Assembly (NCBI RefSeq): GCF_000020785.1
Contig: NC_011126.1
Span: 1,054,001 to 1,118,000 of the forward strand
Direction of reading: 5' to 3'
Length of the DNA: 64,000 nt
Origin: Hydrogenobaculum sp. Y04AAS1
GTDB taxonomy: Bacteria; Aquificota; Aquificia; Aquificales; Aquificaceae
The translations under genes were made by a program, and so were the position numbers. A model generated the notes under the pieces. That model was not told the origin of the DNA. It saw nothing but the letters and a program-made list of their open reading frames with translations, and searched no databases. Below, one piece after another: positions 19,240 through 38,047 of this stretch (its first letter is position 1; each line of letters starts with the position of its first letter).

Positions 19240-19246
19240 ATTTAAT

Positions 19247-20002: not shown

Positions 20003-20009
20003 TATTATA

Positions 20010-21062: not shown

Positions 21063-21070
21063 TAACTGTA

Positions 21071-21154: not shown

Positions 21155-21156
21155 AT
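21151..21156 (+). promoter_or_regulatory. -10 box of ispF (leaderless type, inside repeat tract)
   Basis: TATAAT preceded by TGG, 6 nt before the ispF ATG. It lies at the degenerate end of the 18-bp repeat tract, so the repeat appears to have supplied the promoter. Confidence 0.55.
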
Positions 21157-21162
21157 TTTTTC

Positions 21163-21633
21163 ATGTATAGGATAGGCATAGGTCAAGACGCTCATTATTT
21201 TGAAAAAGGGAAAAAGCTATATTTAGGGGGTGAAGAGTTTGATATAGGATATGGCTTAAAAGGGCATTCGGATGGTGATGCTCTTTTGCATGCAATAACA
21301 GATGCTATTTTAGGGGCGTTGGCAAAAACCGATATAGGCACTCTTTTTCCCGATAAAAGCAAAGAAAACAAAAATAGAAACAGCGTAGACTTTCTAAATA
21401 AAGCTTTAGAGATTATGTACGACATGGATTATTCAATAGTTAATTTAGACTGCAACATAATAGCAGATAAACCAAACATATCAAGCGTTAGAGATAAAAT
21501 AATAGAAAGTCTATCGAGGCTTTTAAGTATACCAAAAGATAATATATCTATAAAAGCCAAAACTAAAGAAGGTTACAACAAAGAAGATAGCTTAGAGGTA
21601 GTATGCATAGCGCTTTTGCAGAAAATGATATAG
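21163..21633 (+). CDS. ispF: 2-C-methyl-D-erythritol 2,4-cyclodiphosphate synthase
   Basis: Converts CDP-methylerythritol 2-phosphate to the cyclodiphosphate in the non-mevalonate isoprenoid pathway. At 156 residues it is a standard trimeric zinc enzyme. The metal ligands lie in GQDAHYF (Asp, His) and the GHSDGDALLHAITDAILGA block, and the C-terminal family motif is IKAKTKEGY. It overlaps the patatin gene by 31 nt. Confidence 0.96.
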   Translation: MYRIGIGQDAHYFEKGKKLYLGGEEFDIGYGLKGHSDGDALLHAITDAILGALAKTDIGTLFPDKSKENKNRNSVDFLNKALEIMYDMDYSIVNLDCNIIADKPNISSVRDKIIESLSRLLSIPKDNISIKAKTKEGYNKEDSLEVVCIALLQKMI

Positions 21634-22367: not shown

Positions 22368-22479
22368 AGTTTTTATTTTTTATGGATTTTCATTGTATTA
22401 AAATGTTTTATATCATAGCTTTTTTAATATATAATAGGTTATTATATAAGATAATTTTTATTTTTAGGAGGTTTTAAAA

Positions 22480-23073
22480 ATGAAGAAGACACTTTTAGGT
22501 GCTGCAGTTTTAGCCCTAGGCCTTGTGGCATGTAGCCACCAACAATCAAGCGAGTCATCATCTGCAAGCTCAGAACAACCAGCAGCTGCAACTACTTCTA
22601 CGCCATCATCTCCGTCTACAACTTCTACATCTACAACCACAACCTCATCTTCTTCATCAGCTCAAATATGTTCTGGTACCGGCGCTCAACAAGTATGTGC
22701 TAGCGCATCTTCTATAAACCAAGACGATGCTAAGAAGTTGGTAGCTATGGCTGGTACAAAAGGATGTTTGGCTTGTCACGCTGTAGACAAGCAAGTGGTA
22801 GGGCCAGCTTGGATAGACGTTGCTAAAAAATACGCTGGTAAACCAAACGCTGTAGAAACACTGGCAAAAGGTATAAAGAACGGTAATCAAGGTATATGGG
22901 GTGCTGTACCAATGCCAGCGCAAACATCTTTGAGCGATGCTGACGCTAAACAATTGGCTCAGATGGTATTAGCTCTTTACAACAAAAATTCTTCCAGCTC
23001 ATCTTCATCATCAAGCAACAACAAAGAGAAAAGCTCTAAGAAAGAAGAAAAGAAAACTGAAAAGAAAGGTTAA
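22480..23073 (+). CDS. Cytochrome c lipoprotein with Ser/Thr-rich linker
   Basis: A 197-residue lipoprotein: signal and lipobox LGLVAC put the lipidated Cys at residue 18. A Ser/Thr/Ala/Pro-rich linker of about 50 residues follows, then a cytochrome c551/c552-type domain with haem motif GCLACH (Cys96 to His100) and the axial Met in VPMPAQT (about residue 145). The tail is Ser-rich, then Lys/Glu-rich, about 30 residues, and likely disordered. It should carry electrons in the periplasm tethered to a membrane. A clear AGGAGG lies 8 nt before the ATG, and a strong terminator follows, so it is a single-gene unit. Confidence 0.9.
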   Translation: MKKTLLGAAVLALGLVACSHQQSSESSSASSEQPAAATTSTPSSPSTTSTSTTTTSSSSSAQICSGTGAQQVCASASSINQDDAKKLVAMAGTKGCLACHAVDKQVVGPAWIDVAKKYAGKPNAVETLAKGIKNGNQGIWGAVPMPAQTSLSDADAKQLAQMVLALYNKNSSSSSSSSSNNKEKSSKKEEKKTEKKG

Positions 23074-23089
23074 TACAAGTTTTATGACA

Positions 23090-23119
23090 CCTTCCCAATA
23101 TGGGAGGGTTTTTGTTTTT
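23090..23119 (+). terminator. Rho-independent terminator after the cytochrome c gene
   Basis: An 8-bp stem (CCTTCCCA with TGGGAGGG, one G-U pair) closed by a 3-nt ATA loop and followed by TTTTTGTTTTT. It is the clearest intrinsic terminator in the window. Confidence 0.85.
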
Positions 23120-23139
23120 CTTAAAATGTGAGGGTTTTT

Positions 23140-24534
23140 ATGAAAAAGAATTTTTTCGCTTTGGGTTTAGCTTTATCTATCCTAGGGTCAAACGTTAGTG
23201 CAGTATCTGGTCCAATTTTAGAGCAATTTCAAAAAGAAGTAGAACAAATAGTAGATAAAGTCTCACCTTCAGTAGTAACAATTTACGCTACTCAGATAGT
23301 GAAAGCTCCTTTAAACACTCAAATATTTCCAGGATTTCCACCGTTTATGATGCCAGGTATTCCAACTCCAGAAATCCCAGAGAAAGAAAAAGATTTGGGT
23401 TCTGGTATTATAATTAAATACATTCAATCTAAAAATGCCTTTATAATTTTAACAAACAATCATGTTGTAGGAAATTCAAAAGATGTAATGGTAAAATTAT
23501 CTAGAACTATTGAAAGAAAAGCTAAGGTTTTAGGTAGGGACCCTAAAACAGATTTAGCAGTGCTAGAAGTTAGCGCTGAGGGCATAGATAACCCTAGTTC
23601 TAGAGTGGCTACTCTTGGGGATTCTTCTCATGTAAGAATAGGACAACTTGTCATAGCTATAGGGAATCCATACGGTTTTAGTAGAACTGTTACAATGGGA
23701 GTAATATCTGCTTTAAACAGAAGGCTTGGCCTTTCTCAATATGAAGATTATATACAAACGGATGCTGCTATAAACCCAGGCAACAGCGGTGGTCCTCTCA
23801 TAAATATAGAAGGCAAAGTGATAGGTATAAATACTGCAATGGTGAAAGGGGGTCAAGGGCTTAGTTTTGCCATACCTATAAATTTAGCTAAATGGGTTTA
23901 TCATCAAATAATGGAGTATGGTAAAGTTATAAGAGGCTGGCTTGGTGTATCTATACAGCAGATAACACCTCAGATGGCCTCCTCTTTAGGTGTAAACTAC
24001 GGCGCTATCGTCGCTCAAGTATTTCCAGGCTCACCTGCTCAAAAGTACGGTCTTAAAGTAGGGGATATAATAGTATCAGTGGATGGAAAACCCCTTGAAA
24101 GCATAGACGAGCTCCAATTTAAAACCATGGAATCTCCACCTGGCACTGTCTTGACTTTGGGTGTTATAAGAAATCATAAGCTTATTACGATTAAAGTGAA
24201 AACTGCAAAAATGCCAAGCAACACTAGCAATATAGGTGTTGTATCGGAAGCTAAAGATTTGGGCCTTATGGTAAGACCTCTAAATCCTCAAGAGCAAAGA
24301 CGTTACGAAGTAAAAGGCGGCCTTTTGGTGGAAGATGTACTGATGGGTTCTCCTGCTTACGAAGCCGGTATAAGAGCCGGTGATATCATTCTTAGCATAA
24401 ACCTTCATAGAATCTATACAAAAGCCGAGATGGACAATATATTAGAACGCTTAATATCTGAACATAAAGATACTGCTACTTTCCTAGTAGATAGAAACGG
24501 TCAAAACATCTTTGTTACAGTGAGATTAAAATAA
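23140..24534 (+). CDS. Do-type periplasmic serine protease (DegP/DegQ-like)
   Basis: A 464-residue HtrA-family protease/chaperone. A signal peptide (residues 1-22) precedes the trypsin-like domain with the catalytic triad in LTNNHVVG (His), DPKTDLAVLEV (Asp) and NPGNSGGPL (Ser). Two PDZ domains follow (IRGWLGVSIQQITPQMA; LVEDVLMGSPAYEAGIRAGD). It degrades or refolds damaged envelope proteins. The ATG at 23140 is chosen over the GTG at 23128 because GAGGG lies 5 nt upstream and the signal peptide then starts with MKK. Confidence 0.95.
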   Translation: MKKNFFALGLALSILGSNVSAVSGPILEQFQKEVEQIVDKVSPSVVTIYATQIVKAPLNTQIFPGFPPFMMPGIPTPEIPEKEKDLGSGIIIKYIQSKNAFIILTNNHVVGNSKDVMVKLSRTIERKAKVLGRDPKTDLAVLEVSAEGIDNPSSRVATLGDSSHVRIGQLVIAIGNPYGFSRTVTMGVISALNRRLGLSQYEDYIQTDAAINPGNSGGPLINIEGKVIGINTAMVKGGQGLSFAIPINLAKWVYHQIMEYGKVIRGWLGVSIQQITPQMASSLGVNYGAIVAQVFPGSPAQKYGLKVGDIIVSVDGKPLESIDELQFKTMESPPGTVLTLGVIRNHKLITIKVKTAKMPSNTSNIGVVSEAKDLGLMVRPLNPQEQRRYEVKGGLLVEDVLMGSPAYEAGIRAGDIILSINLHRIYTKAEMDNILERLISEHKDTATFLVDRNGQNIFVTVRLK

Positions 24535-24535
24535 T

Positions 24536-25369
24536 ATGCTTATAACAAAATATCAAGGTTCTGGCAACGATTTTATTATCATAGATAATAGGGATAATTT
24601 TGTTTATAAAGAGATAGAAAAGTTAGGTTTAAGTATAAACGAATTTGTTAGAAAACTTTGTGAACAGCATACATCAGTGGGTGCAGACGGTGTTATACTT
24701 ATAGAAAAAGCCAGAAATACTAAAAATCATTTTAGCTGGGCGTTTTTCAACGCCGATGGTTCGGCAGCTGAGATGTGTGGCAACGGTTCTCGTTGCGCTG
24801 CAAGATTTGCCTACGAGAAAGATATTGCTCCAAAGGATATTGTCTTTGAAACAATAGCTGGCGAGATAGAAGCTCACATAATGGATTCAAAAAGGGTAAA
24901 AGTGCAACTTACCCCTTATCATTCACATCAAAAGAATATAGAAATCAAAACTGAGTATGGCACTTTCAAAGGTCATTTTGTCAATACTGGGGTGCCACAT
25001 TTTGTTATATTTGTGGATGAAGATGAACTTGATAACTTAGATGTGGAAAAAGTAGGTAGAGCCATAAGATATCATGAGTATTTTGCTCCAAAAGGAACAA
25101 ATGTAAATTTTGTGGCAAAAACAAAAAACGGCAGTTTTAGAATAAGAACTTACGAAAGGGGCGTTGAAGGTGAAACCCTTGCCTGTGGGACCGGTAGCGC
25201 AGCTTGTGGTATAAACGCATATCTTCTTGGTTTATCGGCTTCTAACATAGTAGACATCATCACCAAATCCGGTGAGCTCTTAAAAATAACCATAGAGAAT
25301 GATAAGGTATTTTTAGAAGGTCCCACTACAAAAGTATTTGAAGGCATGCTCTCTTACGAGATCTTCTAA
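24536..25369 (+). CDS. dapF: Diaminopimelate epimerase
   Basis: Interconverts LL- and meso-diaminopimelate for lysine and peptidoglycan synthesis. At 277 residues the length is normal. The two catalytic cysteines are in EMCGNGSRCAARF and TLACGTGSAACG, and the N-terminal KYQGSGNDFIIID is diagnostic. It starts 1 nt after the protease stop and overlaps the next gene by 1 nt. Confidence 0.97.
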   Translation: MLITKYQGSGNDFIIIDNRDNFVYKEIEKLGLSINEFVRKLCEQHTSVGADGVILIEKARNTKNHFSWAFFNADGSAAEMCGNGSRCAARFAYEKDIAPKDIVFETIAGEIEAHIMDSKRVKVQLTPYHSHQKNIEIKTEYGTFKGHFVNTGVPHFVIFVDEDELDNLDVEKVGRAIRYHEYFAPKGTNVNFVAKTKNGSFRIRTYERGVEGETLACGTGSAACGINAYLLGLSASNIVDIITKSGELLKITIENDKVFLEGPTTKVFEGMLSYEIF

Positions 25370-25785
25370 TGGATTTATACTTTTATCTCGATACTTATGT
25401 AGGTGAATACCTGATAAATTTTTACATGGTATCTTTTAAACTTCTTGATCTAGACTCGGTAGAGATTACCGATTTTTACGGTTCGAAACTAATATCAAAT
25501 ATATTAGATTGGGACGCTTTCTCTAGCTCCGTAGGAAACATATACCTTCTTGAATACGGTGATCCCATTCAGAGGTTTTACAACATAGAAGAAGCCATTA
25601 AGACAGGGTACGATATTATTTTTGAAATAGCGAAATCTTCTACAAATGTTTTAAAACCAAGGCCTATGATTGGAGTAGGCTATCCACCGTTATTTTTATT
25701 AAAAAAGCTTTACCCAAATTTATTTGAAGACATGCTCTTTAGGCAAAGTCTTGATGAGTTTTTAGACCAAATACTATTCACCTAA
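25369..25785 (+). CDS. Conserved-looking hypothetical protein, 138 residues
   Basis: I do not recognise this protein. It is acidic and aromatic-rich at the N-terminus (MDLYFYLDTYVGEYLINFYM), with no signal peptide, Cys cluster or clear membrane helix. The middle has YNIEEAIKTGYDIIFEIAKSS and the C-terminus is helical and charged. Its ATG shares one base with the dapF stop (TAATG), so it is translated with dapF. It looks real from its codon use and tight spacing. Confidence 0.7.
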   Translation: MDLYFYLDTYVGEYLINFYMVSFKLLDLDSVEITDFYGSKLISNILDWDAFSSSVGNIYLLEYGDPIQRFYNIEEAIKTGYDIIFEIAKSSTNVLKPRPMIGVGYPPLFLLKKLYPNLFEDMLFRQSLDEFLDQILFT

Positions 25786-25839
25786 CCTAAAATATAAAAG
25801 TTTTATGATTTTACTAAAAGCCATATACCAAATAAAATC

Positions 25840-25845
25840 TATATT
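25840..25845 (+). promoter_or_regulatory. -10 box of the GlcF-like gene (leaderless type)
   Basis: TATATT ending 6 nt before the ATG at 25852. No ribosome binding site is visible. Confidence 0.4.
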
Positions 25846-25851
25846 TTAATT

Positions 25852-27066
25852 ATGGAAGAAAAACATTTTGAAATACCCATAGATTTGCTACAAAAGTGCG
25901 TTAGATGTGGTCTTTGTAAATCGGTATGCCCTACATATAGGGTAAATGAAGAAGAAAGAAGCTTTGCAAGAGGAAGACTAGCTTTGGCTCAGATGGTCCT
26001 ATCTGGAGAACTGCCTCTTACCAAAGATGTGGCAAGACAGTGGGACGAATGCGCCATGTGTAGAAGATGTGAGTGGATCTGTCCAAACAACGTAGAGTAC
26101 AAAGAGATTATGTCAAAAGCCAAAGAGCTTCAATCAAACACCCTTGGCAAAGATCCATTCAAATACACCGCTCTAAGCGCTCTTGAGCTAATGCAAACAA
26201 ACGTTGGTAGAACTGTCGTAAAAATGGCTGGTTCTTTATTATCTTTAATCCCCAAAAAAGAACTAAAAACTTACATACCTTCTGGTATAAACGGTGCTGT
26301 AAAGTTCATGCCAAAACCCTCCAAAGACGCTTTTGGTATAAGAGGACAAACCTTTAAAACCGATAAAACCCCTTCCAAAGGCACACTTCTTTTCTTTACC
26401 GGTTGCATGGTAGATGCTTTTTACACTACCACTGGTAAAAATGCCATAAAAGTCTTGAACAAAGCAGGTTATGATGTAATTGTACCAAAGGATATAAAGT
26501 GTTGCGGTGCTCCTCATCTTTACTCTGGGAATATTGAGGCTTTTAATATACTAAAAGCCAAAAACCAAGAGGAGATTTCAAAATACAACTTTGATGCTAT
26601 AGTGGTAGTTTGTCCCACCTGCGGTGGTGCACTGTTGGAAGATTATGGATATAAAAATGTTTTAGATTTTGCAAGCATTGTAGCGTCTTCAAACGATCTT
26701 GTTTTAAAGTCAAAATCAAAAGAATCTGTCACTTTCCATGTACCCTGCCACTCTTACAGCGCTATGAAAACACCGGTATCCGATTTTGAAAACACCATAA
26801 AGAAAATAGAAAATGTAGAGTACAATAAAGCTTCTAAAGCTCAAAGCTGTTGTGGTTTTGCTGGGCTTTTTTCCATGAAAAACCCGGAGCTTTCTACAGC
26901 TATTCAAAAAGAGAAAATGGAAGACTTCAAATCCACAAACGCAGAATATATACTAAGCGCTTGTCCTGGATGTGTTTTACAGCTTCAAGATGGCAACCTT
27001 AAGTTTAAAAATAATCAAAAGATCATGCATATAGCAGATTTTGTGGCAAACAAGTTAGAAGATTGA
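25852..27066 (+). CDS. GlcF/HdrD-like iron-sulfur oxidoreductase subunit
   Basis: A 404-residue protein with two N-terminal 4Fe-4S motifs (CVRCGLCKSVCP and CAMCRRCEWICP) and two CCG-domain repeats (CCGAPHLYSG and CCGFAGLFS, each with an upstream CxxC or Cys). This is the layout of the glycolate oxidase iron-sulfur subunit GlcF and the heterodisulfide-reductase D-like proteins, which pass electrons between a flavoprotein and quinone or thiol acceptors. No FAD subunit (GlcD/GlcE) is adjacent, so the partner and substrate are unknown. Confidence 0.87.
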   Translation: MEEKHFEIPIDLLQKCVRCGLCKSVCPTYRVNEEERSFARGRLALAQMVLSGELPLTKDVARQWDECAMCRRCEWICPNNVEYKEIMSKAKELQSNTLGKDPFKYTALSALELMQTNVGRTVVKMAGSLLSLIPKKELKTYIPSGINGAVKFMPKPSKDAFGIRGQTFKTDKTPSKGTLLFFTGCMVDAFYTTTGKNAIKVLNKAGYDVIVPKDIKCCGAPHLYSGNIEAFNILKAKNQEEISKYNFDAIVVVCPTCGGALLEDYGYKNVLDFASIVASSNDLVLKSKSKESVTFHVPCHSYSAMKTPVSDFENTIKKIENVEYNKASKAQSCCGFAGLFSMKNPELSTAIQKEKMEDFKSTNAEYILSACPGCVLQLQDGNLKFKNNQKIMHIADFVANKLED

Positions 27067-27150
27067 AGTTTTTTGGTTTTTAAAAACTTGCTTTAGCTCA
27101 TTTTTGTTTGGTTTATAATGTTTATATTAGTAAATTTTTAAGGAGAAATT

Positions 27151-27993
27151 ATGGAGCAAATTATTAGAGTGGCTCACAGCCCAGACTCAGACGATGCTTT
27201 TATGTTTTATCCTATGGTTAAAGGTCTTATAGACACCTATGGATTTAAGATAGAACACATTTTAAAAGATATAGAAAGCCTTAACGAAGACGCTAAAAAG
27301 GGTACATACGAACTATCTGCAATTTCTTTTCATGCATACCCATACGTAGCAGATAAGTACTACGTTTTACCAAGCGGTGGAAGCGTAGGAGAAGGATATG
27401 GTCCTATCGTTGTCACAAAAGAACCCACAAACACCATAAAAGGAAAAAGAATAGGGATACCAGGAGAACTAACAACGGCTTACCTTGTTTTAAGGCTATT
27501 CGAAGAGGATTTTGAACCAGTTGTTATGCCTTTTGATAAGATATTGGATGAGGTGGAGAAGGGCAGTGTAGATGCTGGTCTTATTATACACGAAGGGCAA
27601 CTTACATACAAAGACAAAGGACTATACAAGTTTGTAGACCTTGGGGAAGATTGGAAGAAAAAATACAACCTACCACTTCCATTAGGATGCAACATAGTAA
27701 GAAAAGATCTTGGTTTAGATATCATAAAAAAACTTGAAAACATAATGAGAGAAAGTGTTAAAAAAGCCCTAGAGATAAGAAAAGAGGCCTTAAATTACGC
27801 TATAAATTATGCAAGGGACTTAGAAAACGACGAGGCAAGGGCTTCAAAGTTTGTAAGCATGTATGTGAACGAAAGAACTATAGACTATGGGCCGGATGGA
27901 AAAGAAGCGGTAAAGCTTTTATATAAACTTGGCAAAGAAAAAGGTATCATAAAAGCAAAGATACCAGATATTATCTTCACAGACGAACTTTAA
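27151..27993 (+). CDS. mqnD: 1,4-dihydroxy-6-naphthoate synthase MqnD
   Basis: A 280-residue periplasmic-binding-protein fold enzyme of the futalosine route to menaquinone; it converts cyclic dehypoxanthine futalosine to dihydroxynaphthoate. Diagnostic segments are AHSPDSDDAFMFYPMVKG at the N-terminus, SAISFHAYPYVADKY and LPLPLGCNIV. It has an AAGGAG ribosome binding site 7 nt upstream of the ATG. It heads a run with two hypothetical or membrane genes; other mqn genes are not in the window. Confidence 0.9.
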   Translation: MEQIIRVAHSPDSDDAFMFYPMVKGLIDTYGFKIEHILKDIESLNEDAKKGTYELSAISFHAYPYVADKYYVLPSGGSVGEGYGPIVVTKEPTNTIKGKRIGIPGELTTAYLVLRLFEEDFEPVVMPFDKILDEVEKGSVDAGLIIHEGQLTYKDKGLYKFVDLGEDWKKKYNLPLPLGCNIVRKDLGLDIIKKLENIMRESVKKALEIRKEALNYAINYARDLENDEARASKFVSMYVNERTIDYGPDGKEAVKLLYKLGKEKGIIKAKIPDIIFTDEL

Positions 27994-28004
27994 AGGAGAG
28001 TGTT

Positions 28005-28649
28005 ATGATTTTACAAAAAATATACGACGAGAACGTAGAAAACGATATAAAAAATCTTTTTGAGGCCTGGCCAGAAATCTCTTACAAGGTTAGTATAAAA
28101 CCAGTAAAAGTAGGGGATGAATCTATAAACGTGGTTTATATAGAGGCAAACGATGAGGGCTTTGAGAAATCTGTGGGAGTGTTTGAATCCAAAGAAGAGG
28201 CAATGGGCGCTTTTAGAAGTTTTGCCTATGAGCTTGGGTTTGAAGATTATCCTACAAACATAGCATTTTTACATGCTGGGTTTGATGGTGATAAACTTTT
28301 TCTTTTTTTAAAAGCCAAAAACGACGATAATATAAAACAATTTGACCAACTTAGTGTAGAAAAGCTTACCAAAGAACTTCCAAATTATCAAAGAGTGGTG
28401 ATATATCAAAGCGCTGTTTTAACTTATTTAAAAGACATATACCCAGCTATAGACAACATAGCTTATGTAATACCGCACAAACTTTCAAACATAGGTTGTC
28501 AAACGCCTGATTTATCAGACTTAGCAAAAATATACGGCGTTTCTTTAAATACAAAAGAAGATGAAATAAGATTTATAGAAAAGCTTCTTCAAGACCCAAA
28601 AGGTCTTTGCAAAGACAAAGAACCCCCGCCTATAGATATACCTTTATGA
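28005..28649 (+). CDS. Hypothetical protein, 214 residues
   Basis: I do not recognise it. It is a soluble, acidic protein with mixed alpha/beta character, no signal peptide and no obvious motif; it has a proline-rich C-terminus (KEPPPIDIPL). It has an AAGGAG site 7 nt before the ATG, lies 11 nt after mqnD and overlaps pgpA by 4 nt, so it is a true gene co-expressed with mqnD and pgpA. Confidence 0.75.
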   Translation: MILQKIYDENVENDIKNLFEAWPEISYKVSIKPVKVGDESINVVYIEANDEGFEKSVGVFESKEEAMGAFRSFAYELGFEDYPTNIAFLHAGFDGDKLFLFLKAKNDDNIKQFDQLSVEKLTKELPNYQRVVIYQSAVLTYLKDIYPAIDNIAYVIPHKLSNIGCQTPDLSDLAKIYGVSLNTKEDEIRFIEKLLQDPKGLCKDKEPPPIDIPL

Positions 28650-29095
28650 ATTACAAAGACTCATTTTTAAAAATTGTAGCCACTGGCTTTGGGCTCGGGA
28701 AAGCTCCTGTGGCTCCTGGTACTGTAGGCACTTTAAGTGCGATACCTTTTATATATTTGTTGGGTAATAATTTATTTGAAAAGCTCTTATTCTTTATAGT
28801 GTTTATTCCTATTGGTGTTGTAGCCTCTCAATATGTAATAGATATTACGGGAAACAAAGACCCAGATGAAGTTGTAGTAGATGAGCTTGTAGGATACTTT
28901 ATAACAATGATGTTTATACCACATACCTTTTGGTGGATGGTTTTAGGTTTTCTTGTTTTTAGGCTTTTAGATATAACAAAACCTTTTGGCATAAGAAAAT
29001 TAGAAACTCCAAATGGAATTGGTGTTATGCTAGATGATATTGCCGCTGGTTTATTAGGGGCTATTTTATTGTTTATTTTTAAAATGATTATATGA
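28646..29095 (+). CDS. pgpA: Phosphatidylglycerophosphatase A
   Basis: Removes the phosphate from phosphatidylglycerophosphate to give phosphatidylglycerol at the inner membrane. The 149-residue protein has the family signature GLGKAPVAPGTVGTL, the DPDEVVVDELVGYF catalytic loop, four hydrophobic segments and GIGVMLDDIAAGL near the end. The ATG at 28646 is chosen because it overlaps the previous stop by 4 nt and starts just before the signature; an in-frame upstream start would overlap by 43 nt. It overlaps the GGDEF gene by 4 nt. Confidence 0.95.
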   Translation: MNYKDSFLKIVATGFGLGKAPVAPGTVGTLSAIPFIYLLGNNLFEKLLFFIVFIPIGVVASQYVIDITGNKDPDEVVVDELVGYFITMMFIPHTFWWMVLGFLVFRLLDITKPFGIRKLETPNGIGVMLDDIAAGLLGAILLFIFKMII

Positions 29096-31842
29096 GCTAT
29101 ACCGTTTATTTGGCTTTAAAAAATGAGGAAGTTGTAAATTTTCTAAAGGTTGAAGCCAGTACGCCTACAAAATATGCTATACAGCTGATGGCTAATTTTG
29201 ATAAGGACTACGTAGTTGTTGTTGAGAACAATAAAACGGTGGGTATTTTGTCCGAGTCTGATGTTTTAAAGTTAAAATACGCCAACGAAAATCTTGATAA
29301 AAACGTATTAGAGTATGCCTCAAAACCAGCAATAACCGTTAGAAGCTCTTTCAACCTCTTTGAGGCCATTAATTTAATGATAGAAAACGATATATCAAAG
29401 CTTATTGTAGTTGATGATGAAGATACACCAATAGGTGTGCTTACTCAAAGAACTCTTATAAAAACAATAGACCAGGAGATGTTAAAAAGACACAAACATG
29501 TTAAAGATATATTAAGACAAAGAGATTTGATAAGTTTATCCCCCACGGATACTCTTAGTCTAGCTCTTAAAACCCTCGTAGAAAACAAAATAAGAGCAGT
29601 AGTAATATTAGAACCCAACAAGACAAATAGTAGTGAATTTGACGAAAACGAGCAAGATACAAACGATGGCAAACTTGTTGATCGTGGTAGACTTGTAAGC
29701 CGTGGTAGACTTGTGGATCGTGGTAGACTTGTAAGCCGTGGTAGACTTGTGGATCGTGGTAGACTTGTAGGTATAATAACTCAAAAAGATTTGACTAAGC
29801 TCATATCTGTCGGTGTTGATTTAGATAAAGCTTTGATTAAAGATTATATGAAATCCCCTGTAATAACTTGCAGAATGGACACGCCTCTTATAGAAGCTTC
29901 AAAGATGATGGCAAGCTTTAATATAAGAAGACTCGTAGTGGTAGATGAAAAAGACAATCCCATAGGCATAGTAACCCAAGGAGATATAATAAGAAATCTT
30001 GAGGAAAAATATGAAGAATATATAGAGAAAAAGTTAAAACACTTAAGATCTATGCTAAATATAATGCAAGATCCAGTGTTAGAGATTGTGGATGCTGGTG
30101 TTTTTGATTCTTCCTCTGGCGTGATAATATGGCAAAATGATAGTGCAAAGAGCATATTTGGAAACTTTTTAGGGAAAAATATAGAAGAAATTATAGATCA
30201 TTATACATGGAAATATATATACGAAAAGCTTAAAAATGAAAAAAATGTAAACTATGAGCCTATATTTATAAAAGATTATATATATCATATATCCTGTGTG
30301 TATATTGAGGATGAACAAAAAATAATAGACGGTAGAATCAAAATTTTGTTTAAAGACATAACAAAAGCCTATAAATCTGAGTTAGAGCTAAAAAAGATAA
30401 ATAAGCAATATAAAAATATTTTAGACGCAATGAACGATATGGTTATAATCTACGATGCCTATGATTATAAAATCAAATTTGTTAATAAATCTACTTTAGA
30501 ACACTTGGGATATACAGAAGAAGAGCTTACAAACAAAAATTTCTTCGATATCATACTAAATCCAGAAAATGTAATAAAACATTTCATAGAACGCATTGTA
30601 AAAGAAAACAGAAAAGTGGTAGGAAGACGAGTGTATATCAAAAAGAATGGAGACTTTTTACCAGTGCATGTAGTAGCAACAAAAGTAGAATTTGAAAATC
30701 ACACTAGCAAAGAACATATACTTGTGGTAGCAAGAGATATATCAAAAGAGTTAATCATAGAAGAAAAACTAAAAAATACAAACAAAGATCTAAATATACT
30801 TTATTCTTTTATTACAGATCTTTCTAAAGCGCATCAAGAAGATGAAGCTTATGATATTCTTATTCATTACTTAAAGAGGCTAGGAATAGAATACGTGCAT
30901 ATGTACAAACTAAATCCATCCCTAAACAAAATCGTGTCCTCTTATTTGCTAAAGACAAAAAGCATATATCAACCACATGATGAGAGCAACGTGTGGGTAA
31001 ATGATTGTTTAGAAGACAATCCGTCTTTGTGTAAAGTTATAAAATCTGGAACTACTTTAGCTATTCCCAATATCACTATAGATTATGGCTGTCCTAGGAT
31101 TGCTTTAGGATCTTCTATAAAATCTTATATGTGCGTACCTATTTTTATAGGCGGTATTTACATAACAAACGCCACAGCTATCTTAACCCTAATGTCTTCT
31201 AAAGAAAATTTTTTCACCGAAGATACAAAGAATAAAGTAAATAAATTTATAGAGGCTTTTATACCTGTAGTTAGCAATTTAAGACTCATAGAAATAAATA
31301 AAGAGCTTTCTATAAGAGATCCTCTCACAAATGCTTACAATAGGCGGTTTTTGGATGAGATATTGCAAAAGGAATTTCAAAAAGCTCTAAGATATCAAAC
31401 CAAATTATCGATTGTTATGCTAGACGTAGATAACTTTAAAAAATTTAACGATACATACGGCCATAGGGCAGGGGATATGGCTTTACAACATCTATCTAAA
31501 GTAGTTCAAGAAAGCATAAGAGTTACAGATATATTTGCTAGATATGGTGGTGAGGAGTTTACGATAGTGCTTCCAGAAACATCTAAAGAATATGCAACCG
31601 AAATAGCAAATAGAATAAAGGACGCTCTATCAAGCAAAATGTTTTATGCAAACTCTTTGGAATCTAAAGACATAAGCACATTAAATATAGATGATATTTA
31701 TACAAAGTATTATATAACCGCGTCTTTTGGTGTAGCTACTTTTGATGATGATGCCAAAAATTTAGAAGAATTGATAAAAGTAGCTGATATGAGGCTATAT
31801 AAAGCAAAAGAATTAGGTAAAAATAGAGTGGTATATAATTAA
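29092..31842 (+). CDS. CBS-PAS-GAF-GGDEF diguanylate cyclase with expanded repeat insertion
   Basis: A 916-residue soluble multidomain protein. Residues 1 to about 330 hold four CBS modules (two Bateman pairs), residues about 330-560 two PAS-like domains, about 570-730 a GAF domain, and about 740-916 a GGDEF domain. The cyclase motif is GGEEF, with an RVTD inhibitory site five residues before it, so it should make c-di-GMP and be product-inhibited. Residues 197-226 are five copies of a six-residue unit (DRGRLV/SRGRLV) encoded by an 18-bp repeat. They are inserted where a normal CBS module would simply read GKLVGIITQKDL. It overlaps pgpA by 4 nt. Confidence 0.9.
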   Translation: MSYTVYLALKNEEVVNFLKVEASTPTKYAIQLMANFDKDYVVVVENNKTVGILSESDVLKLKYANENLDKNVLEYASKPAITVRSSFNLFEAINLMIENDISKLIVVDDEDTPIGVLTQRTLIKTIDQEMLKRHKHVKDILRQRDLISLSPTDTLSLALKTLVENKIRAVVILEPNKTNSSEFDENEQDTNDGKLVDRGRLVSRGRLVDRGRLVSRGRLVDRGRLVGIITQKDLTKLISVGVDLDKALIKDYMKSPVITCRMDTPLIEASKMMASFNIRRLVVVDEKDNPIGIVTQGDIIRNLEEKYEEYIEKKLKHLRSMLNIMQDPVLEIVDAGVFDSSSGVIIWQNDSAKSIFGNFLGKNIEEIIDHYTWKYIYEKLKNEKNVNYEPIFIKDYIYHISCVYIEDEQKIIDGRIKILFKDITKAYKSELELKKINKQYKNILDAMNDMVIIYDAYDYKIKFVNKSTLEHLGYTEEELTNKNFFDIILNPENVIKHFIERIVKENRKVVGRRVYIKKNGDFLPVHVVATKVEFENHTSKEHILVVARDISKELIIEEKLKNTNKDLNILYSFITDLSKAHQEDEAYDILIHYLKRLGIEYVHMYKLNPSLNKIVSSYLLKTKSIYQPHDESNVWVNDCLEDNPSLCKVIKSGTTLAIPNITIDYGCPRIALGSSIKSYMCVPIFIGGIYITNATAILTLMSSKENFFTEDTKNKVNKFIEAFIPVVSNLRLIEINKELSIRDPLTNAYNRRFLDEILQKEFQKALRYQTKLSIVMLDVDNFKKFNDTYGHRAGDMALQHLSKVVQESIRVTDIFARYGGEEFTIVLPETSKEYATEIANRIKDALSSKMFYANSLESKDISTLNIDDIYTKYYITASFGVATFDDDAKNLEELIKVADMRLYKAKELGKNRVVYN
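29680..29769 (+). repeat. 18-bp dispersed repeat, 5 units inside a CBS module
   Basis: Five perfect-length 18-bp units with starts at 29680, 29698, 29716, 29734 and 29752. They alternate GAT...GTA and AGC...GTG forms, so there is also a 36-bp higher-order period. A degenerate partial unit (GATGGCAAACTTGTT) precedes at 29665-29679. The near-identity of units, against the diverged tracts at 20340 and 21071, points to recent expansion. Confidence 0.95.
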
Positions 31843-31859
31843 AGATATAGGAGGTTTAT

Positions 31860-32144
31860 ATGGAACTATTCAAAAAATATATCATTGAACTGGTGATTTA
31901 TGTGACCTCTGTTGGATTATCAGTTATGGCTATGGGTTTTCTAGCAGACAGAAACTTCATATTTGGAAGTCTTTTTATGTTTATGCTCCTTCTTTTCCAA
32001 GTTTTCGTGATTTTAGGAGCAAAAGGAGATAAAGAATTCCCAAAAGCTTACGATAAAGATATAAAAGACGTAGGGCTTTTCAACGCACTTATGCTTATAT
32101 ATTTTGGAGTTTTTACAGCTGGTATATTGATGACTTTAGTTTAA
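31860..32144 (+). CDS. Small membrane protein, 94 residues, unknown function
   Basis: I do not recognise it. Three hydrophobic segments (about residues 8-28, 31-52 and 74-93) flank a charged loop GAKGDKEFPKAYDKDIKD. A clear AGGAGG precedes the ATG by 6 nt. It lies 17 nt after the GGDEF gene and 2 nt before thiE, so it is part of the same transcript. Confidence 0.75.
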   Translation: MELFKKYIIELVIYVTSVGLSVMAMGFLADRNFIFGSLFMFMLLLFQVFVILGAKGDKEFPKAYDKDIKDVGLFNALMLIYFGVFTAGILMTLV

Positions 32145-32146
32145 TT

Positions 32147-32704
32147 ATGAAACTTTCAAAATATCTTACGATAGTTGATGTTGATGTATTTAAAGATGAT
32201 ATAACAGAAAAAACAAAGAAGATTGTAGAAACTTACAAACCAAGCATTATGCTAAGGGCCAAAAACCTAAAAGGAAAATATTTTTATGAATATGCAAAAG
32301 CTATAAGAGATATCACACTAAATTACGGTGTTTTATTTTTTGTAAATGAGCGCTTTGATATAGCACTGGCTGTAGGGGCAAACGGGGTACATCTTCCATC
32401 GAACGCTTTAGATGTATCTGTTGTAAAAAATATATGTAAAGATATGACCATAGGATATTCGGCTCATTCAAAAGAAGATGCGCTTGAGGCTTTTCAAAAA
32501 GGTGCAGATTACGTCACGCTTAGCCCTATTTTTCCTACTAAAAGCCATGAAAACGCAACACCCCTTGGTTTAGAATATTTAGAAGATGTGGTCAAGTCCT
32601 CCAAAAAACCCATATTTGCCCTTGGAGGTATCACAAAAGAAAATATAGATGATGTTTTTAAAACTGGAGTTTACGGTATAGCTTCTATAAGATTTTTCCT
32701 ATAA
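32147..32704 (+). CDS. thiE: Thiamine phosphate synthase family protein (ThiE/TenI)
   Basis: A 185-residue TIM-barrel protein, shorter than typical ThiE (about 210). It has IMLRAKNL at the pyrophosphate-binding strand, GANGVHLPSN, IGYSAHS, YVTLSPIFPTKSHENATPLG and the phosphate loop FALGGITKENI. ThiE joins the thiazole and pyrimidine halves of thiamine; TenI is an aromatase with the same fold. The IMLRAKNL motif and the SPIFPT segment favour ThiE, but TenI is not excluded. It would act downstream of ThiS/ThiG at 2.8-3.8 kb. Confidence 0.75.
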   Translation: MKLSKYLTIVDVDVFKDDITEKTKKIVETYKPSIMLRAKNLKGKYFYEYAKAIRDITLNYGVLFFVNERFDIALAVGANGVHLPSNALDVSVVKNICKDMTIGYSAHSKEDALEAFQKGADYVTLSPIFPTKSHENATPLGLEYLEDVVKSSKKPIFALGGITKENIDDVFKTGVYGIASIRFFL

Positions 32705-32802
32705 ATTGAAATATCATAAGTGAAGTATATCTAATTTAAGGAGGTATACAACATTTGCGATTTTCTGTAAGAAAGTGTATAATATTAAACTATGGGCGGG
32801 AA

Positions 32803-34488
32803 ATGTTAACACTTCAATGTATACTTGAATTTAAAAATGAGAAAGATAAAGAAGTTGTATTAGATTTAATGCGTAGGTTTTCATCTGCAATGAGATATGC
32901 ATATAAAAGGTTGTTAGAAAGTGAAAAAAGAAAGGACTTAAAAAAGCATTTATCTAAAACATTTAACATAAATACAAGATATTCAGATGATGCAATACTG
33001 CTAGCTAAGCAAACGATAGAGACATACAAATCGCATAATAAAAATCCAAAAAAGGTTATATTTGGCTCAAGAATGTTATTTGATAAGCTAAACAAGAAAC
33101 ACTTAACTGGAGAATCAAGAAAGAGTCTTATAAAAAAGTGGAGAGAAAAAAGGCAAGGTAATCTTTATTCAAGAGGCGATAAATCTAAACAAGGAAATCT
33201 AAATTTAAGACTGCAGTGGATAGATGATAAACTTTACTTGAGAATAAATATAGGAGATAGACAGTATATTTATGCAAAAGTAATTAGAACTGTAAGCAGG
33301 AAGAATGATAAATGGATAGATTTTATGTTAATGCTATTGAAAGCTAAAGAATCTGGTAGTTGGTTTCCATATAGTGTTAGGCTAGCATTGAAAAACGGTA
33401 AAGTTTATGCTTTCATATCTGTTGAAGAAAAATTACCACCTGTTACAATTAAAAAAGATAGTGGAGTTATAGGTATAGACATAAACGCTTATCCATTTCA
33501 TTTAGCATTAGCAACCGCATCAAAAGATGGAAATCTGGAAAACTATCAAGCAATAAGCTTGCATGAGTTATTGGATGTTAGCTCAGAGAAAAGACAATAT
33601 TTAGAATGGCGGATAGCACATCAAATAATAGAAATTGCCAAGAAGGAAAACAAAGCTATTGCAATAGAAAACTTAGATAAACTACCAAAAGGTAAAAGAG
33701 GAAATGGATTTGCTAAACTAAGACAGAAATTGCAAAAGTGGATATACAAGAGATTATTAAATAAAATAGAGATTACAGCAAGAAGAAATGGAATAGAAAT
33801 TAGAAAAGTAAATCCAGCGTATACATCTTTAATAGGCAAATTAAAATACGCACCACAATTTAACATAGATAAGGATATTGCAGCAGCATTTGTAATAGCA
33901 AGAAGAGGATTAGGATATAAGGAAAAACTACCAAAGAATTATAGAGAGGTATTGAATGATATTGACTTTCTATCATATAGTATTGCAAGAATTGAGGATG
34001 ATATTAAAAGGGTAAAGGAAAATATAAAAGATGAAAAGAATCCATATATTAGAAATAGATTAAAAAGTATGTTAGCAAAATTAAGAAAAGAACTTAAAGC
34101 ACTACAAAAACATTTGTCGTTTATTATACAAAGTGAAAAGAGTAAGTCAGTTTCTCAACAACCTGTCAACCAACGGAAGGAACAGGTGAGAAGTTCCGCT
34201 TATGCGGGATACAAAAACTGGCAAGTTCTTTTCACAGCCTTTGCCTTCTGCTATCTTGAAAAATCATACAGAGATTTTTCTCCTTTGAAGCAATTAATAG
34301 TTTCAAAAGATTGGATAGCAGTGGCAAATAGGTTAGCTCCTGTGCTTGGTGCAGGGACTACAAGTATGCCACGGTTTATGATACTTCCAAAATACCGCCT
34401 GTTGGGGTTGGAAGTGTCTGAAATGGCGGAATACAAATACCCCAACTCAAGCTGTACAGAGCAATACAGTTTTGTACAGTTTGGTTGA
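32803..34488 (+). CDS. TnpB-like RuvC nuclease lacking the zinc ribbon (IS200/IS605-related)
   Basis: A 561-residue protein. A TnpB/Cas12-type RuvC fold is visible: GIDINAYPFHLAL with Asp226, IAIENLDKLP with Glu289, and an Asp pair D356/D358 in NIDKDIAAAFVIARRG. The four-Cys zinc ribbon that normally lies between the second and third RuvC motifs is missing; the segment there reads NPAYTSLIGKLKYAP. This matches a TnpB-related family I remember from thermophiles. About 200 residues follow the last RuvC motif, with the last 100 codons richer in GC and in short inverted repeats. No TnpA gene is present. The TTG at 32755 with GGAGG upstream is an alternative start. Confidence 0.8.
   Translation: MLTLQCILEFKNEKDKEVVLDLMRRFSSAMRYAYKRLLESEKRKDLKKHLSKTFNINTRYSDDAILLAKQTIETYKSHNKNPKKVIFGSRMLFDKLNKKHLTGESRKSLIKKWREKRQGNLYSRGDKSKQGNLNLRLQWIDDKLYLRINIGDRQYIYAKVIRTVSRKNDKWIDFMLMLLKAKESGSWFPYSVRLALKNGKVYAFISVEEKLPPVTIKKDSGVIGIDINAYPFHLALATASKDGNLENYQAISLHELLDVSSEKRQYLEWRIAHQIIEIAKKENKAIAIENLDKLPKGKRGNGFAKLRQKLQKWIYKRLLNKIEITARRNGIEIRKVNPAYTSLIGKLKYAPQFNIDKDIAAAFVIARRGLGYKEKLPKNYREVLNDIDFLSYSIARIEDDIKRVKENIKDEKNPYIRNRLKSMLAKLRKELKALQKHLSFIIQSEKSKSVSQQPVNQRKEQVRSSAYAGYKNWQVLFTAFAFCYLEKSYRDFSPLKQLIVSKDWIAVANRLAPVLGAGTTSMPRFMILPKYRLLGLEVSEMAEYKYPNSSCTEQYSFVQFG
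34161..34479 (+). other. Structured 3' end of the TnpB-like gene, possible guide-RNA (omega RNA) or element end
   Basis: Four inverted repeats lie here: 34161-34166 with 34182-34187 (ACCTGT/ACAGGT), 34194-34199 with 34204-34209 (TTCCGC/GCGGGA, 4-nt loop), 34401-34408 with 34439-34446 (GTTGGGGT/ACCCCAAC) and 34452-34457 with 34474-34479 (CTGTAC/GTACAG). In known TnpB elements the guide RNA overlaps the 3' end of the gene. Whether this stretch is RNA, protein-coding, or both is not settled. Confidence 0.35.
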
Positions 34489-34499
34489 CCAGGTTAAAA

Positions 34500-34706
34500 A
34501 TGATAGGAATATTGACATTAACAGTCATAACCCAAAGGGCCACAAGCCTTAATTACGGGGAGAACATAGGCAATGTATCAATTCTTAAGAAACTTTCCCT
34601 AGGGGACAGCTCTCAGCTCACCTATGTGTCGGACAAAGCGCTAAAGTATGATATAAAGAGGAAAGGTAGAGAAGAGAAGGGATGGAAATTGTTGGATGGT
34701 TTCTAA
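34500..34706 (+). pseudogene. 5' fragment of a type I-B cas7 (cst2/devR) gene
   Basis: A 68-codon open frame from ATG 34500 reads like the N-terminus of Cas7 of the Cst2/DevR family: a first beta strand (ILTLTVITQRA), then SLNYGENIGNVSILKKLS, QLTYVSDKALKYDIKRKG and GWKLLD. The full protein is about 300 residues, so over three quarters is missing. The frame ends at a TAA inside the CRISPR repeat at 34699-34727, meaning the gene was cut and joined to the repeat. CAGG lies about 7 nt before the ATG. The identification rests on remembered family features, not a search. Confidence 0.7.
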
Positions 34707-34727
34707 TTAACCGTTTGGAGTTGAAAG
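34699..34727 (+). CRISPR. Solitary CRISPR repeat, copy 1
   Basis: A 29-nt sequence beginning GTTTCTAATTAACCGTTTGG and ending AGTTGAAAG, the form of CRISPR repeats in thermophiles (GTTTC start, TTGAAAG 3' handle). It differs by one base from copy 2. It is fused to the truncated cas7 frame. It has no neighbour at normal spacer distance, so it is a relic, not a working array. Confidence 0.75.
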
Positions 34728-34965
34728 ATGGTGGGTATAGAGGCAGTGTTTTTGGGATATTAGGTTTTATGGGTAGAGGTAGTTATCTTTGGTGGCTGGG
34801 AAGCTTTGTCTGGTAATGAGGTGCTGTGATGGGGTTTGAGGGGTTGGGTAAAGTATACTAAGCTTAAGACACTTATTGATTTAGATTTATTAGTAGAAGT
34901 CTATAATGTGATATATTATTGACTTCGTATAAATTTTTTATACTTTATATAGTGAGGTATTTGTT
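34728..34965 (+). other. Non-coding gap between CRISPR repeat 1 and hicB, strongly G-over-C skewed
   Basis: The first 130 bases of this 238-bp gap contain only a handful of C but many G and T on the plus strand, unlike the rest of the window. I see no gene, no further repeat copy and no tRNA. The last 50 bases hold the hicB promoter region. Confidence 0.5.
34927..34943 (+). promoter_or_regulatory. Palindrome in the hicBA promoter, candidate operator
   Basis: GTATAAATTTTTTATAC: perfect 7-bp arms around TTT, 22 bp upstream of the hicB ATG and just after TTGACT (34919-34924). It overlaps the TATACT that could serve as -10 box. HicB or HicAB complexes usually repress their own promoter at such sites, but this HicB has no visible DNA-binding domain. 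Confidence 0.4.
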
Positions 34966-35175
34966 ATGAGAGAATTTCATGTAGTAGTTACTCAAGATGA
35001 AGAAGGTTATTTTGTGGCTGAAGTATCTGAGTTGTCTGGTTGTCATACTCAAGCAAAGTCTCACGATGAGTTAATGGAAAGAATAAAAGAAGCTATTGAG
35101 CTTTATTTAGATGTTGTAGAAGGTCAAATCCCAGAAGAGATTAAGATTATAGAGACCCAAGCGGCTCTAACGTGA
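34966..35175 (+). CDS. hicB: HicB-family antitoxin
   Basis: A 69-residue HicB-type antitoxin of the partial RNase H fold: FHVVVTQDEEGYFVAEVSELSGCHTQ, then SHDELMERIKEAIELYLD. It lacks the extra C-terminal ribbon-helix-helix or helix-turn-helix that longer HicB proteins use for DNA binding. GAGG lies 8 nt before the ATG. It overlaps the hicA start (GTGA, 4 nt) and lies between two lone CRISPR repeats. The frame is intact although the toxin gene is broken. Confidence 0.9.
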   Translation: MREFHVVVTQDEEGYFVAEVSELSGCHTQAKSHDELMERIKEAIELYLDVVEGQIPEEIKIIETQAALT

Positions 35176-35406
35176 AATTTCCTTCTCTGACAGGTAAAGA
35201 GATAGTAGAAATCTTAAAGAAAATAGGTTTTGAAGAGATTAGACAAAGAGGAAGCCATGTATTTTTAAAGCATCCAGACGGAAGAATAACCGGTTGTTCC
35301 ATTGCATTCAGGAGAAACTGTTGGACCAGGATTATTTTCTAAAATCCTTAAAGATATAGGGCTTACAAAAGAAGAGTTTTATAATTTAATGAGAAATAAA
35401 AAATAA
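35172..35406 (+). pseudogene. hicA: hicA toxin gene with a one-base frameshift
   Basis: HicA is a small double-stranded-RNA-binding-fold mRNA interferase. From the GTG, the frame reads KFPSLTGKEIVEILKKIGFE and [14 protein letters not shown], including the catalytic His in GSH. It then shifts: with both G at 35292-35293 the frame ends at 35342 (56 residues). Dropping one G restores [15 protein letters not shown], then [14 protein letters not shown], to a stop at 35406, the normal HicA ending. So the toxin is inactivated, or the sequence has an error at a GG. Confidence 0.88.
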
Positions 35407-35418
35407 AAAAATATTGAG

Positions 35419-35447
35419 GTTTCTAATTAACCGTGTGGAGTTGAAAG
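35419..35447 (+). CRISPR. Solitary CRISPR repeat, copy 2
   Basis: 29 nt identical to copy 1 except CCGTGTGG for CCGTTTGG. It lies 12 nt after the restored hicA stop and 2 nt before the stop of the gspC-like gene. Same orientation as copy 1; the starts are 720 bp apart. Confidence 0.78.
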
Positions 35448-35449
35448 TT

Positions 35450-36235
35450 TCATTCTACTTTGTAATAAAGGGTTATCTCTTTGTTGTCCCTTATGATTTT
35501 TACGCTGAAGCTTTGGCTGTTTCTTAATGTACCTAATATTCTAAAAGCATCTTCTGGAGAGTTTAGACTTTCATTGTTTATAGAAAGAAGTATATCACCT
35601 GGTCTTATACCCATCTGGGCAAAAAGCGATCCTGGTTTTACGCTTTTAAACATAAAACCCTTTGGAGTGGGTACAAGGTCTATATCGCTAAACATCTTAT
35701 AGGGGTTTGATGTAATTTCAAGAAGCTCGTTTCTATTTACTGTATAAGTATTTTGATTTAAGCTACCGTTTAAAAGTTCTTTCAAAGAAGGAAGACCACT
35801 TGGTGTATTGGCACTGTTTATCTTAGCACCTTTTGAAAGTTTTAGAGTAAGGGTTTTGCCGTCGTTGCTTGCTATTATATAAAAAGGTTTTATCTCTTCT
35901 ATTGTAAAACCGCAAAAACTATCTCCTACCATAAGCACTTTTTTACCACAATTAGAGCTTACAAGCACCATAGAATAAGCGGGATTTTCACTGTAGGCTA
36001 TAGCAAGTACTTCCATGTTTGAGCTTGGGCTAGTGGTTTGAGGAGTTATTTTTTGGTGTGCAAATTTACTTATAGCTTCCATTAGATCATTTTCATTAAA
36101 AGAAGATGGTATCGTTGGCATTTCTTGATTCAATACAATTTTTAGGCTTTTAATATTGTAATAAGAAGATAAAATACTTGTAAGTATAAGCAAAATACTA
36201 ACTATTAGGCTGTATGTTGCATAAGACTTTTTCAA
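35450..36235 (-). CDS. GspC-like type II secretion protein with PDZ domain
   Basis: A 261-residue protein with one N-terminal membrane anchor (about residues 8-27), a periplasmic homology-region-like beta domain (about 75-150) and a C-terminal PDZ domain (GFMFKSVKPGSLFAQMGIRPGDILLSIN). This is the order seen in GspC, the inner-membrane link to the secretin. It is the last gene of the queF-gspL-gspM-gspC run, overlapping the previous gene by 4 nt. The secretin, ATPase and pseudopilins are not in the window. Confidence 0.72.
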   Translation of the reverse strand: MKKSYATYSLIVSILLILTSILSSYYNIKSLKIVLNQEMPTIPSSFNENDLMEAISKFAHQKITPQTTSPSSNMEVLAIAYSENPAYSMVLVSSNCGKKVLMVGDSFCGFTIEEIKPFYIIASNDGKTLTLKLSKGAKINSANTPSGLPSLKELLNGSLNQNTYTVNRNELLEITSNPYKMFSDIDLVPTPKGFMFKSVKPGSLFAQMGIRPGDILLSINNESLNSPEDAFRILGTLRNSQSFSVKIIRDNKEITLYYKVE

Positions 36236-36660
36236 GGGCTTATCTCCATAAGAAGATCAAAGTTTTGTTCTCCAGTGTAGTCTGTAGCTTTTAAAAAATT
36301 TATCTTAAAACCATCGTTTTCTATCTGATAAACTATATTAGCAAGTGTTTTAATATCAACGTTTGATGCTTTTACGTTGTAAAAACCGTTTTCATATTTT
36401 ATATAATCTACTTTTGTATGTGAAAATAAATTTCTAACATAATTTTCGTTTAAAGTTTTTGTTTTGGATTTACCATTTTTGATAAGAAAACTTATATATT
36501 CATACTGGGCTATTTTATTGTAAAGTGCTTCTTTTTCTTTTTTTACACTATTAAAAGCCTCAAGAAAAATAGCTACAAAAATTACAACATATAAAATATA
36601 CCTTATTCTATATAAAAAATAAACATACCTTGGTGATATATTTATCTTCCTAAAATCCAT
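36232..36660 (-). CDS. GspM-like inner membrane protein
   Basis: A 142-residue protein with a membrane helix at about residues 18-34, a coiled-coil-like segment and a small C-terminal ferredoxin-like domain (VDYIKYENGFYNVKASNVDIK). Its size, topology and place between gspL-like and gspC-like genes indicate GspM (PilO-like). Sequence conservation in this family is weak, so the call rests mainly on context. It overlaps both neighbours. Confidence 0.6.
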   Translation of the reverse strand: MDFRKINISPRYVYFLYRIRYILYVVIFVAIFLEAFNSVKKEKEALYNKIAQYEYISFLIKNGKSKTKTLNENYVRNLFSHTKVDYIKYENGFYNVKASNVDIKTLANIVYQIENDGFKINFLKATDYTGEQNFDLLMEISP

Positions 36661-37610
36661 TTTTGAACTACCTCTTGTTTGTTTCCCTCACTTAGATTTC
36701 TTGAAGAAACCACATTTTCTAACGAGCTTAATTCATACGAGCTAATCTCTGATTTTACACTTATAGCGTTATCTTTGTAAAAAAGCTCATATACTTTGGC
36801 ATCTGGTGGTAAGTTTTTATAGGCTTTTAAAAGGAGTTTAGAGAGTTTAAAGCTGTCTTTTGGTATTATAGAAGCTTTAGTTTGCTCTTTTATATCCACT
36901 ATCGGGATATTTGGAAAAGCTTTTTCAAAAATATGTTTTTCTTTTTCTTTTACTATTTTTATTTGATAATGTACTGATAAAAGAAACACCAAGTAGCTTA
37001 TTAAAATCCCCAAAACAAATATACCTATACTTACAAATTCTTTTTTTAGCTTTTGAAAAGATATCCTTTGAATTTGGTTAAATCTATCTTTGACTTTTTT
37101 TAAAGCACCACCAAAAGCTATAAGTTGACCCTTTTTAATATATAGCATAGGTAATGCTCTTAAGTTAGGAGCTTTTATATCTTCTATATCGTAAAGTATA
37201 TCACCTTCAATTGTGTTTAGTTTGTCTATAAGTTCATCTTTGTCAAATATTACCTCATAGTAAACTATATCCTTATTCTCTACTCTACAAAGCACATAAG
37301 CATAAACATCTTTAAAAACCACGTAAAGGTTGTCATAGCCCATGATATCAAGAGCCCTTAAAAGAGCCAAAGCCCATATATCTTCTGTGTCAAAGTCTAT
37401 AGGCTTTTTGGTTAAAAATTTATATCCAGATATATCCAATATACTTGATGTAGGATCAATACTTGAAGTATCTTTTATCAAAAGAGCATCCTTTACAGGT
37501 AGTACTCTAATTGTTACATCTTCTTTACCTTTATTTTCTACTATTTCAAAAGAATTTTTTATTTTTCTTAGAACTACCGAAGTGTCTAAATATATACTCC
37601 TTATGAGCAT
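36642..37610 (-). CDS. GspL-like inner membrane protein
   Basis: A 322-residue protein. The first 180 residues look like the cytoplasmic actin-like domain of GspL, rich in short beta strands (YLDTSVVLRKIKN, YDNLYVVFKDVYAYVLCRVE). One membrane helix follows at about 190-210 (IGIFVLGILISYLVFLLSVHY), then a periplasmic part with a ferredoxin-like segment. GspL recruits the secretion ATPase GspE to the membrane. It starts directly after the queF stop. PilM/PilN-type fusions of the pilus system are the alternative. Confidence 0.65.
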   Translation of the reverse strand: MLIRSIYLDTSVVLRKIKNSFEIVENKGKEDVTIRVLPVKDALLIKDTSSIDPTSSILDISGYKFLTKKPIDFDTEDIWALALLRALDIMGYDNLYVVFKDVYAYVLCRVENKDIVYYEVIFDKDELIDKLNTIEGDILYDIEDIKAPNLRALPMLYIKKGQLIAFGGALKKVKDRFNQIQRISFQKLKKEFVSIGIFVLGILISYLVFLLSVHYQIKIVKEKEKHIFEKAFPNIPIVDIKEQTKASIIPKDSFKLSKLLLKAYKNLPPDAKVYELFYKDNAISVKSEISSYELSSLENVVSSRNLSEGNKQEVVQKWILGR

Positions 37611-37997
37611 TTAATCATATTTTTTATCAGACCTTACTCTTACTACGGTGTGAAGATTTCCCCTTGGATGAAAATCCCCTATTACCTCTAAAAATTTTGG
37701 TTTTAAAAGCTCAAAAAGTTTGTTGTATATGGTGTTTGTAGCTGCTTCATGAGATATATATTGATTTCTAAAAGAGTTTAGCCATAGTTTTAAAGATTTT
37801 AATTCTACAATGTATTCGTTTGGTATATACCTTATCTTTATGGTGGCGTAATCAGGATAACCAGACCTAGGGCAAAGACAGCTAAACTCTGGAAAAGACA
37901 TTTCTATTATATAGTCGTTTTCTTTGGCTGGGTTTTCCCATGGTTCTAAAGCTGCTTTTTCTATTTCAATTTCACCGTACTTTTTCTCTTGTTGCAT
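37611..37997 (-). CDS. queF: NADPH-dependent 7-cyano-7-deazaguanine reductase QueF
   Basis: Reduces preQ0 to preQ1 for queuosine in tRNA. At 128 residues it is the short, unimodular form. Signatures are the catalytic Cys in [14 protein letters not shown], the [25 protein letters not shown] block (family ESKSLK...FRN..(Y/H)E) and [12 protein letters not shown]. The ATG at 37997 is chosen; upstream starts would add a hydrophobic stretch foreign to the family. Confidence 0.94.
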
Positions 37998-38047
37998 AAT
38001 GGGTATAATGATAATACAAATAAGATGTTTTGTCAATTACAGAGTAT

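Follow-up and report, generated by a model that had tools for sequence, protein, structure and literature searches.

A complete type I-B CRISPR-Cas locus almost certainly once stood in the window analysed here (64,000 nucleotides of the Hydrogenobaculum sp. Y04AAS1 genome) and was lost by a deletion running from cas7 codon 67 through most of the array, with a tnpB element and a hicBA segment arriving separately and the remnant left to decay. No evidence contradicting the loss of the locus was found. Two features had gone unnoticed in the original prediction: the hicBA segment between the repeats and the tnpB element that parts the cas7 remnant from its ribosome-binding site. The CRISPR scar in itself is ordinary locus decay, and the greater surprise is where the tnpB element lies.

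Identification of a cas7 remnant

A frame of 68 codons on the forward strand (nt 34500–34706), opening with an ATG at 34500, ends at a TAA (nt 34704–34706) that lies inside the CRISPR repeat at 34699–34727. Its first 66 codons (nt 34500–34698) correspond to the N-terminal 66 residues of a type I-B Cas7 (Cst2/DevR), and the last two codons and the TAA derive from the junction and the repeat. Profile searches with the translation, as proposed in the original prediction, retrieved NCBIfam TIGR01875 (E 6.3e-15, profile positions 1–61 of 240), TIGR02585 Cst2/DevR (E 1.6e-7) and several PADLOC Cas7 models (best E 1.7e-15), as well as Pfam DevR at E 0.0027, below the DevR cut-off. Both the assignment of the frame to the N-terminus of Cas7/Cst2 and its termination by a TAA made by the CRISPR repeat were thus borne out. 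The remnant misses the family cut-off for full-length Cas7 (54.9 bits vs 67.3) and measures 68 aa vs the 328 aa of the Cas7 encoded by the congeneric genome G003; it counts as a Cas7 fragment rather than as a Cas7 proper.

At the DNA level, nt 34495–34698 are 94.6% identical to G003, where the frame goes on to 328 aa. Eleven of the 66 codons differ between the remnant and the G003 gene, five of them nonsynonymously; with so few substitutions relaxed selection cannot show, the remnant being either too young or too short for it. Matches occur in 30 other Aquificales genomes, where the homologous frames mostly run to some 300–360 aa and two are interrupted by a stop. The short frame is therefore not conserved as a gene of its own in relatives, and a conserved small independent gene was ruled out on these grounds; a chance resemblance of a short frame to Cas7 was ruled out by the profile matches together with synteny. 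That the frame is nevertheless a functional gene in itself, e.g., a Cas7-derived regulator retained after loss of the system, would agree with its being open and with just 5 of the 11 differing codons being nonsynonymous with respect to G003. It is very improbable, however, for a frame that spans roughly one quarter of the Cas7 profile, whose end is an accident of a repeat, whose original ribosome-binding site lies 1.75 kb away, and whose relatives have full-length genes.

Comparison with the intact locus of G003

An intact type I-B locus occupies the same site in G003, in the order thiE, cas7, Cas5-Cas8b fusion, cas3, cas4, cas1, cas2, cas6, array and gspC-like gene. By profile its genes are Cas7, a Cas5-Cas8b1 fusion, Cas3, Cas4, Cas1b, Cas2 and Cas6, the type I-B reference set being Cst2/Cas7, Cas5t, Cst1/Cas8b1, Cas3, Cas4, Cas1b, Cas2 and Cas6; the array counts 51 repeats with spacers of 35–42 nt. 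The original prediction had marked this spot as a former I-B locus and had proposed a comparison with related strains, and in G003 the cas operon and array do stand intact at the same place, between thiE and the gsp genes.

The left flank of the window is collinear with G003 over nt 13284–32746 (93.5% identity), and on the right nt 35414–38038 correspond to the trailer end of the G003 array and the downstream genes (97.2% identity). Between cas7 codon 66 and the array, 11,457 G003 bases have no equivalent in the window; since both flanks match, about 11.46 kb, relative to G003, are missing. The junction between effector gene and array falls at 34698/34699, exact to about one base (TTGGATG/GTTTCTAATTAACC), and cas3, cas5, cas8, cas1 and cas2 are all absent between 34698 and 35419. 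The direct joining of the effector gene to the array, proposed from the window, is thus seen against an intact relative. The site shares with type I-B CRISPR-Cas systems the Cas7 N-terminus, the repeat sequence and the location of the intact G003 locus, and differs from them in keeping only 66 codons and two repeats, all other genes of the locus being gone.

The intact relatives encode a single protein of 717–740 aa (L026:984-3206 and L027:9670-11823), an apparent natural Cas5-Cas8 fusion; in the 740-aa protein of G003 the N-terminal part is Cas5 and the C-terminal part Cst1/Cas8b1. The G003 cas6 frame (L026:7123-7848) starts late, giving 140 aa that match profile positions 60–200, so that the gene may be disrupted in G003 or its start misassigned.

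Surviving repeats and the hicBA segment

Repeat 1 (nt 34699–34727, forward strand) is one base off the G003 consensus. Repeat 2 (nt 35419–35447, forward strand) is the trailer-end repeat, from which the right flank is collinear with G003; this second copy is 97% identical over 30 nt (35418–35447). They are the only two copies of this repeat type in the whole genome, and a genome search found no second array of the same repeat elsewhere. Being 691 nt apart, they are not regularly spaced like an array such as that of G003. No Cas1 match was found in the Y04AAS1 genome by a search that found two in G003; no RAMP match was found in it either, and the three helicases matching cas3_core were all below cut-off. 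A published survey reported CRISPR clusters in Hydrogenobaculum sp. Y04AAS1, none of them with cas genes (PMC4227106); since it counted at least one cluster, the genome may hold an array with another repeat.

The 691 nt between the repeats (nt 34728–35418, forward strand) hold a hicB-hicA pair and a G-rich stretch. The hicB-like antitoxin gene (nt 34966–35175, forward strand) matches Pfam PF15919 (E 2.3e-6), and the hicA-like toxin gene (nt 35172–35408, forward strand) matches PF07927 in its first part (E 1.1e-11), the rest lying in another frame. The pair resembles HicBA toxin-antitoxin systems in having HicB-like and HicA-like genes in the order hicB, hicA; it differs in its location between two CRISPR repeats and in a frameshift that splits hicA, and is therefore not intact. 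Only short fragments of the segment were matched in 30 related genomes, and nothing was found in phage or plasmid collections, nor in viral contigs queried with one 20-nt probe. A comparable segment between widely spaced repeats was sought in genome G021 and rejected, as the 914 nt between the repeats there contain an unrelated frame resembling an outer-membrane protein.

A simple deletion does not account for the segment, which calls for either an additional event or an ancestral array of another make-up. The exact placement of a toxin-antitoxin pair between two well-preserved repeats could also recall a working regulatory unit, either CreTA-like or a CRISPR-guarded toxin-antitoxin, rather than leftovers. 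Such a unit is extremely improbable, however, as hicA carries the frameshift, the genome lacks a cas1, RAMP or above-cut-off cas3 match, and 691 nt between repeats is no spacer; moreover, CreTA is an RNA pair, whereas HicBA is a protein pair.

A tnpB element between the cas7 Shine-Dalgarno sequence and ATG

In G003 the site directly before cas7 is empty and reads GAAGGAGG/TAAAAATG, the leader being AAGGAGG-TAAAAATG. In the window the AAGGAGG, the original cas7 Shine-Dalgarno sequence (nt 32738–32744, forward strand), is left 5' of a 1.75 kb IS607-family tnpB element without tnpA (nt 32745–34493, forward strand) that is absent at the G003 site. The element ends with TTTGGTTGACCAGG, and its right end before cas7 reads CCAGG-TTAAAAATG. 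The RuvC-type tnpB frame (nt 32803–34488, forward strand; TIGR01765/TIGR01766) overlaps in its 3' part the conserved right-end RNA/DNA region, so that the true protein end is uncertain; with this proviso the frame encodes about 560 aa, vs 387 aa in ISFba1.

Copies of the element, 84–88% identical, occur at three other G003 sites, and related elements are found across Aquificales. Where these are complete, they encode an IS607 transposase, a TnpA with MerR-type HTH and serine-recombinase domains (L117: NF033518, E 1.4e-66); an IS605 origin was dropped once these relatives with an IS607 TnpA turned up. Sites with and without an element, compared in G003 and in the Y04AAS1 genome, have GG on both sides and no target-site duplication. 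For two of the G003 copies the empty sites are available in the Y04AAS1 genome (TTAGGAGG/TACATAATG and AAAGGAGG/TGTAAATTATG), the latter differing by 2 nt at its right border. IS607 elements are known to end in GG, to insert at GG and to make no target duplication (PMC6188088).

The window element shares with TnpB-carrying IS607 elements the GG borders, the lack of target duplication, the RuvC-type TnpB and a structured right end; the MerR-HTH and serine-recombinase TnpA is present in its relatives, and the window copy has no tnpA. In sequence, the AGGAG at its left border matches the published TnpB TAM (PMC11061315). No Rfam family was found in the right end up to E 1. A second, more distant tnpB element in G003 (L026:14433-15887), absent at nt 38038–38043 of the window, sits at the start of an oligopeptide-binding-protein-like gene, and its borders are not GGAGG.

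Insertion sites of the tnpB family

The insertion habit was examined in 41 copies (the window copy and 40 from Aquificales), and the right end could be read in 34 of them. In 30 of these 34 the terminal CCAGG is followed, at a distance of 1–12 nt, by the start codon of a frame of 50 codons or more; the distance is 5–9 nt in 26 of the 30, and the frame reaches 100 codons or more in 28 copies. Under the same lenient test, 12.9% of the GG sites and 35% of the GGAGG sites of the window qualify; the corresponding binomial probabilities for 30/34 (6e-23 on the GG background and 2e-10 on the GGAGG background) are indicative only, as the copies were treated as independent, the background comes from one window and the right-end pattern was written after the copies had been looked at. 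The left borders are mostly (A)GGAGG, and in most copies a hairpin precedes CCAGG, with stems that are changed and still pair. Ten downstream genes could be named by profile: ftsH, trpS, hslU, lexA, gpsA, guaB, metE, flgC, nuoK and a DJ-1 family gene. Insertion before such genes, ftsH, trpS, guaB and hslU among them, suggests that they stay translated, and the right-end CCAGG, placed at Shine-Dalgarno spacing, could serve the downstream gene.

The element is probably a member of an IS607-type family whose landing site is the Shine-Dalgarno sequence itself, with insertion before the start codon in the orientation of the gene. The right-end CCAGG would keep the downstream gene, even an essential one, translatable by virtue of its normal Shine-Dalgarno spacing, and the putative guide RNA would then carry the first codons of that gene, here cas7, as its guide. 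IS607 itself showed no target preference beyond (G)GG; the copies studied here, by contrast, gather in the space from the Shine-Dalgarno sequence to the start codon. IS607 TnpB nucleases have a 5'-AGGAG TAM in 18 of 22 strains tested (PMC11061315), a motif that the Shine-Dalgarno habit, read from the insertion sites, fits. The words 'Shine', 'ribosome' and 'start codon' are absent from the main text of PMC11061315, and we found no published link of TnpB or IS607 with the Shine-Dalgarno sequence or ribosome binding in a search of mostly open-access literature.

History of the site

From these data, the site would have started with a complete type I-B locus like that of G003. A single deletion, as we infer, would have taken cas7 from codon 67 on, the other cas genes and almost the whole array (about 11.46 kb in G003 coordinates), fusing the 5' end of cas7 to an array repeat whose TAA now closes the frame. 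Independently of it, the IS607-type tnpB element would have entered between the Shine-Dalgarno sequence and the ATG of cas7, and the hicBA segment, again independently, would have come to sit between the two surviving repeats. The remnant would provide neither a functional Cas7 nor immunity, and would be decaying DNA.

The tnpB insertion might itself have caused the loss, by silencing the leading cas gene and leaving the rest free for deletion, given that the element separates the Shine-Dalgarno sequence from the ATG in cas7, which leads the cas genes of G003. We regard this as rather unlikely: the insertion may have come before or after the deletion, 205 nt separate the deletion junction from the end of the element, and relatives tolerate like insertions before genes usually held essential, so that the insertion may not silence at all.

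The scar shows at base resolution how cas genes came to be missing at this site from one Hydrogenobaculum strain and not from a close relative, with the window and G003 as a clean pair in which to study the loss of CRISPR loci. Of the two, the tnpB element may be more important than the scar. If its proposed habit is true, a guide-RNA nuclease motif that coincides with the ribosome-binding site would let the element sit before essential genes with the host surviving, and TnpB guides would be steered to gene starts.

Elsewhere in the left flank, an 18-nt unit (TGTAAATCGTGGTAGACT-like) is repeated in tandem at nt 21049–21175 and nt 29640–29802, 8.5 kb apart, the one at 29640 lying inside a coding frame.
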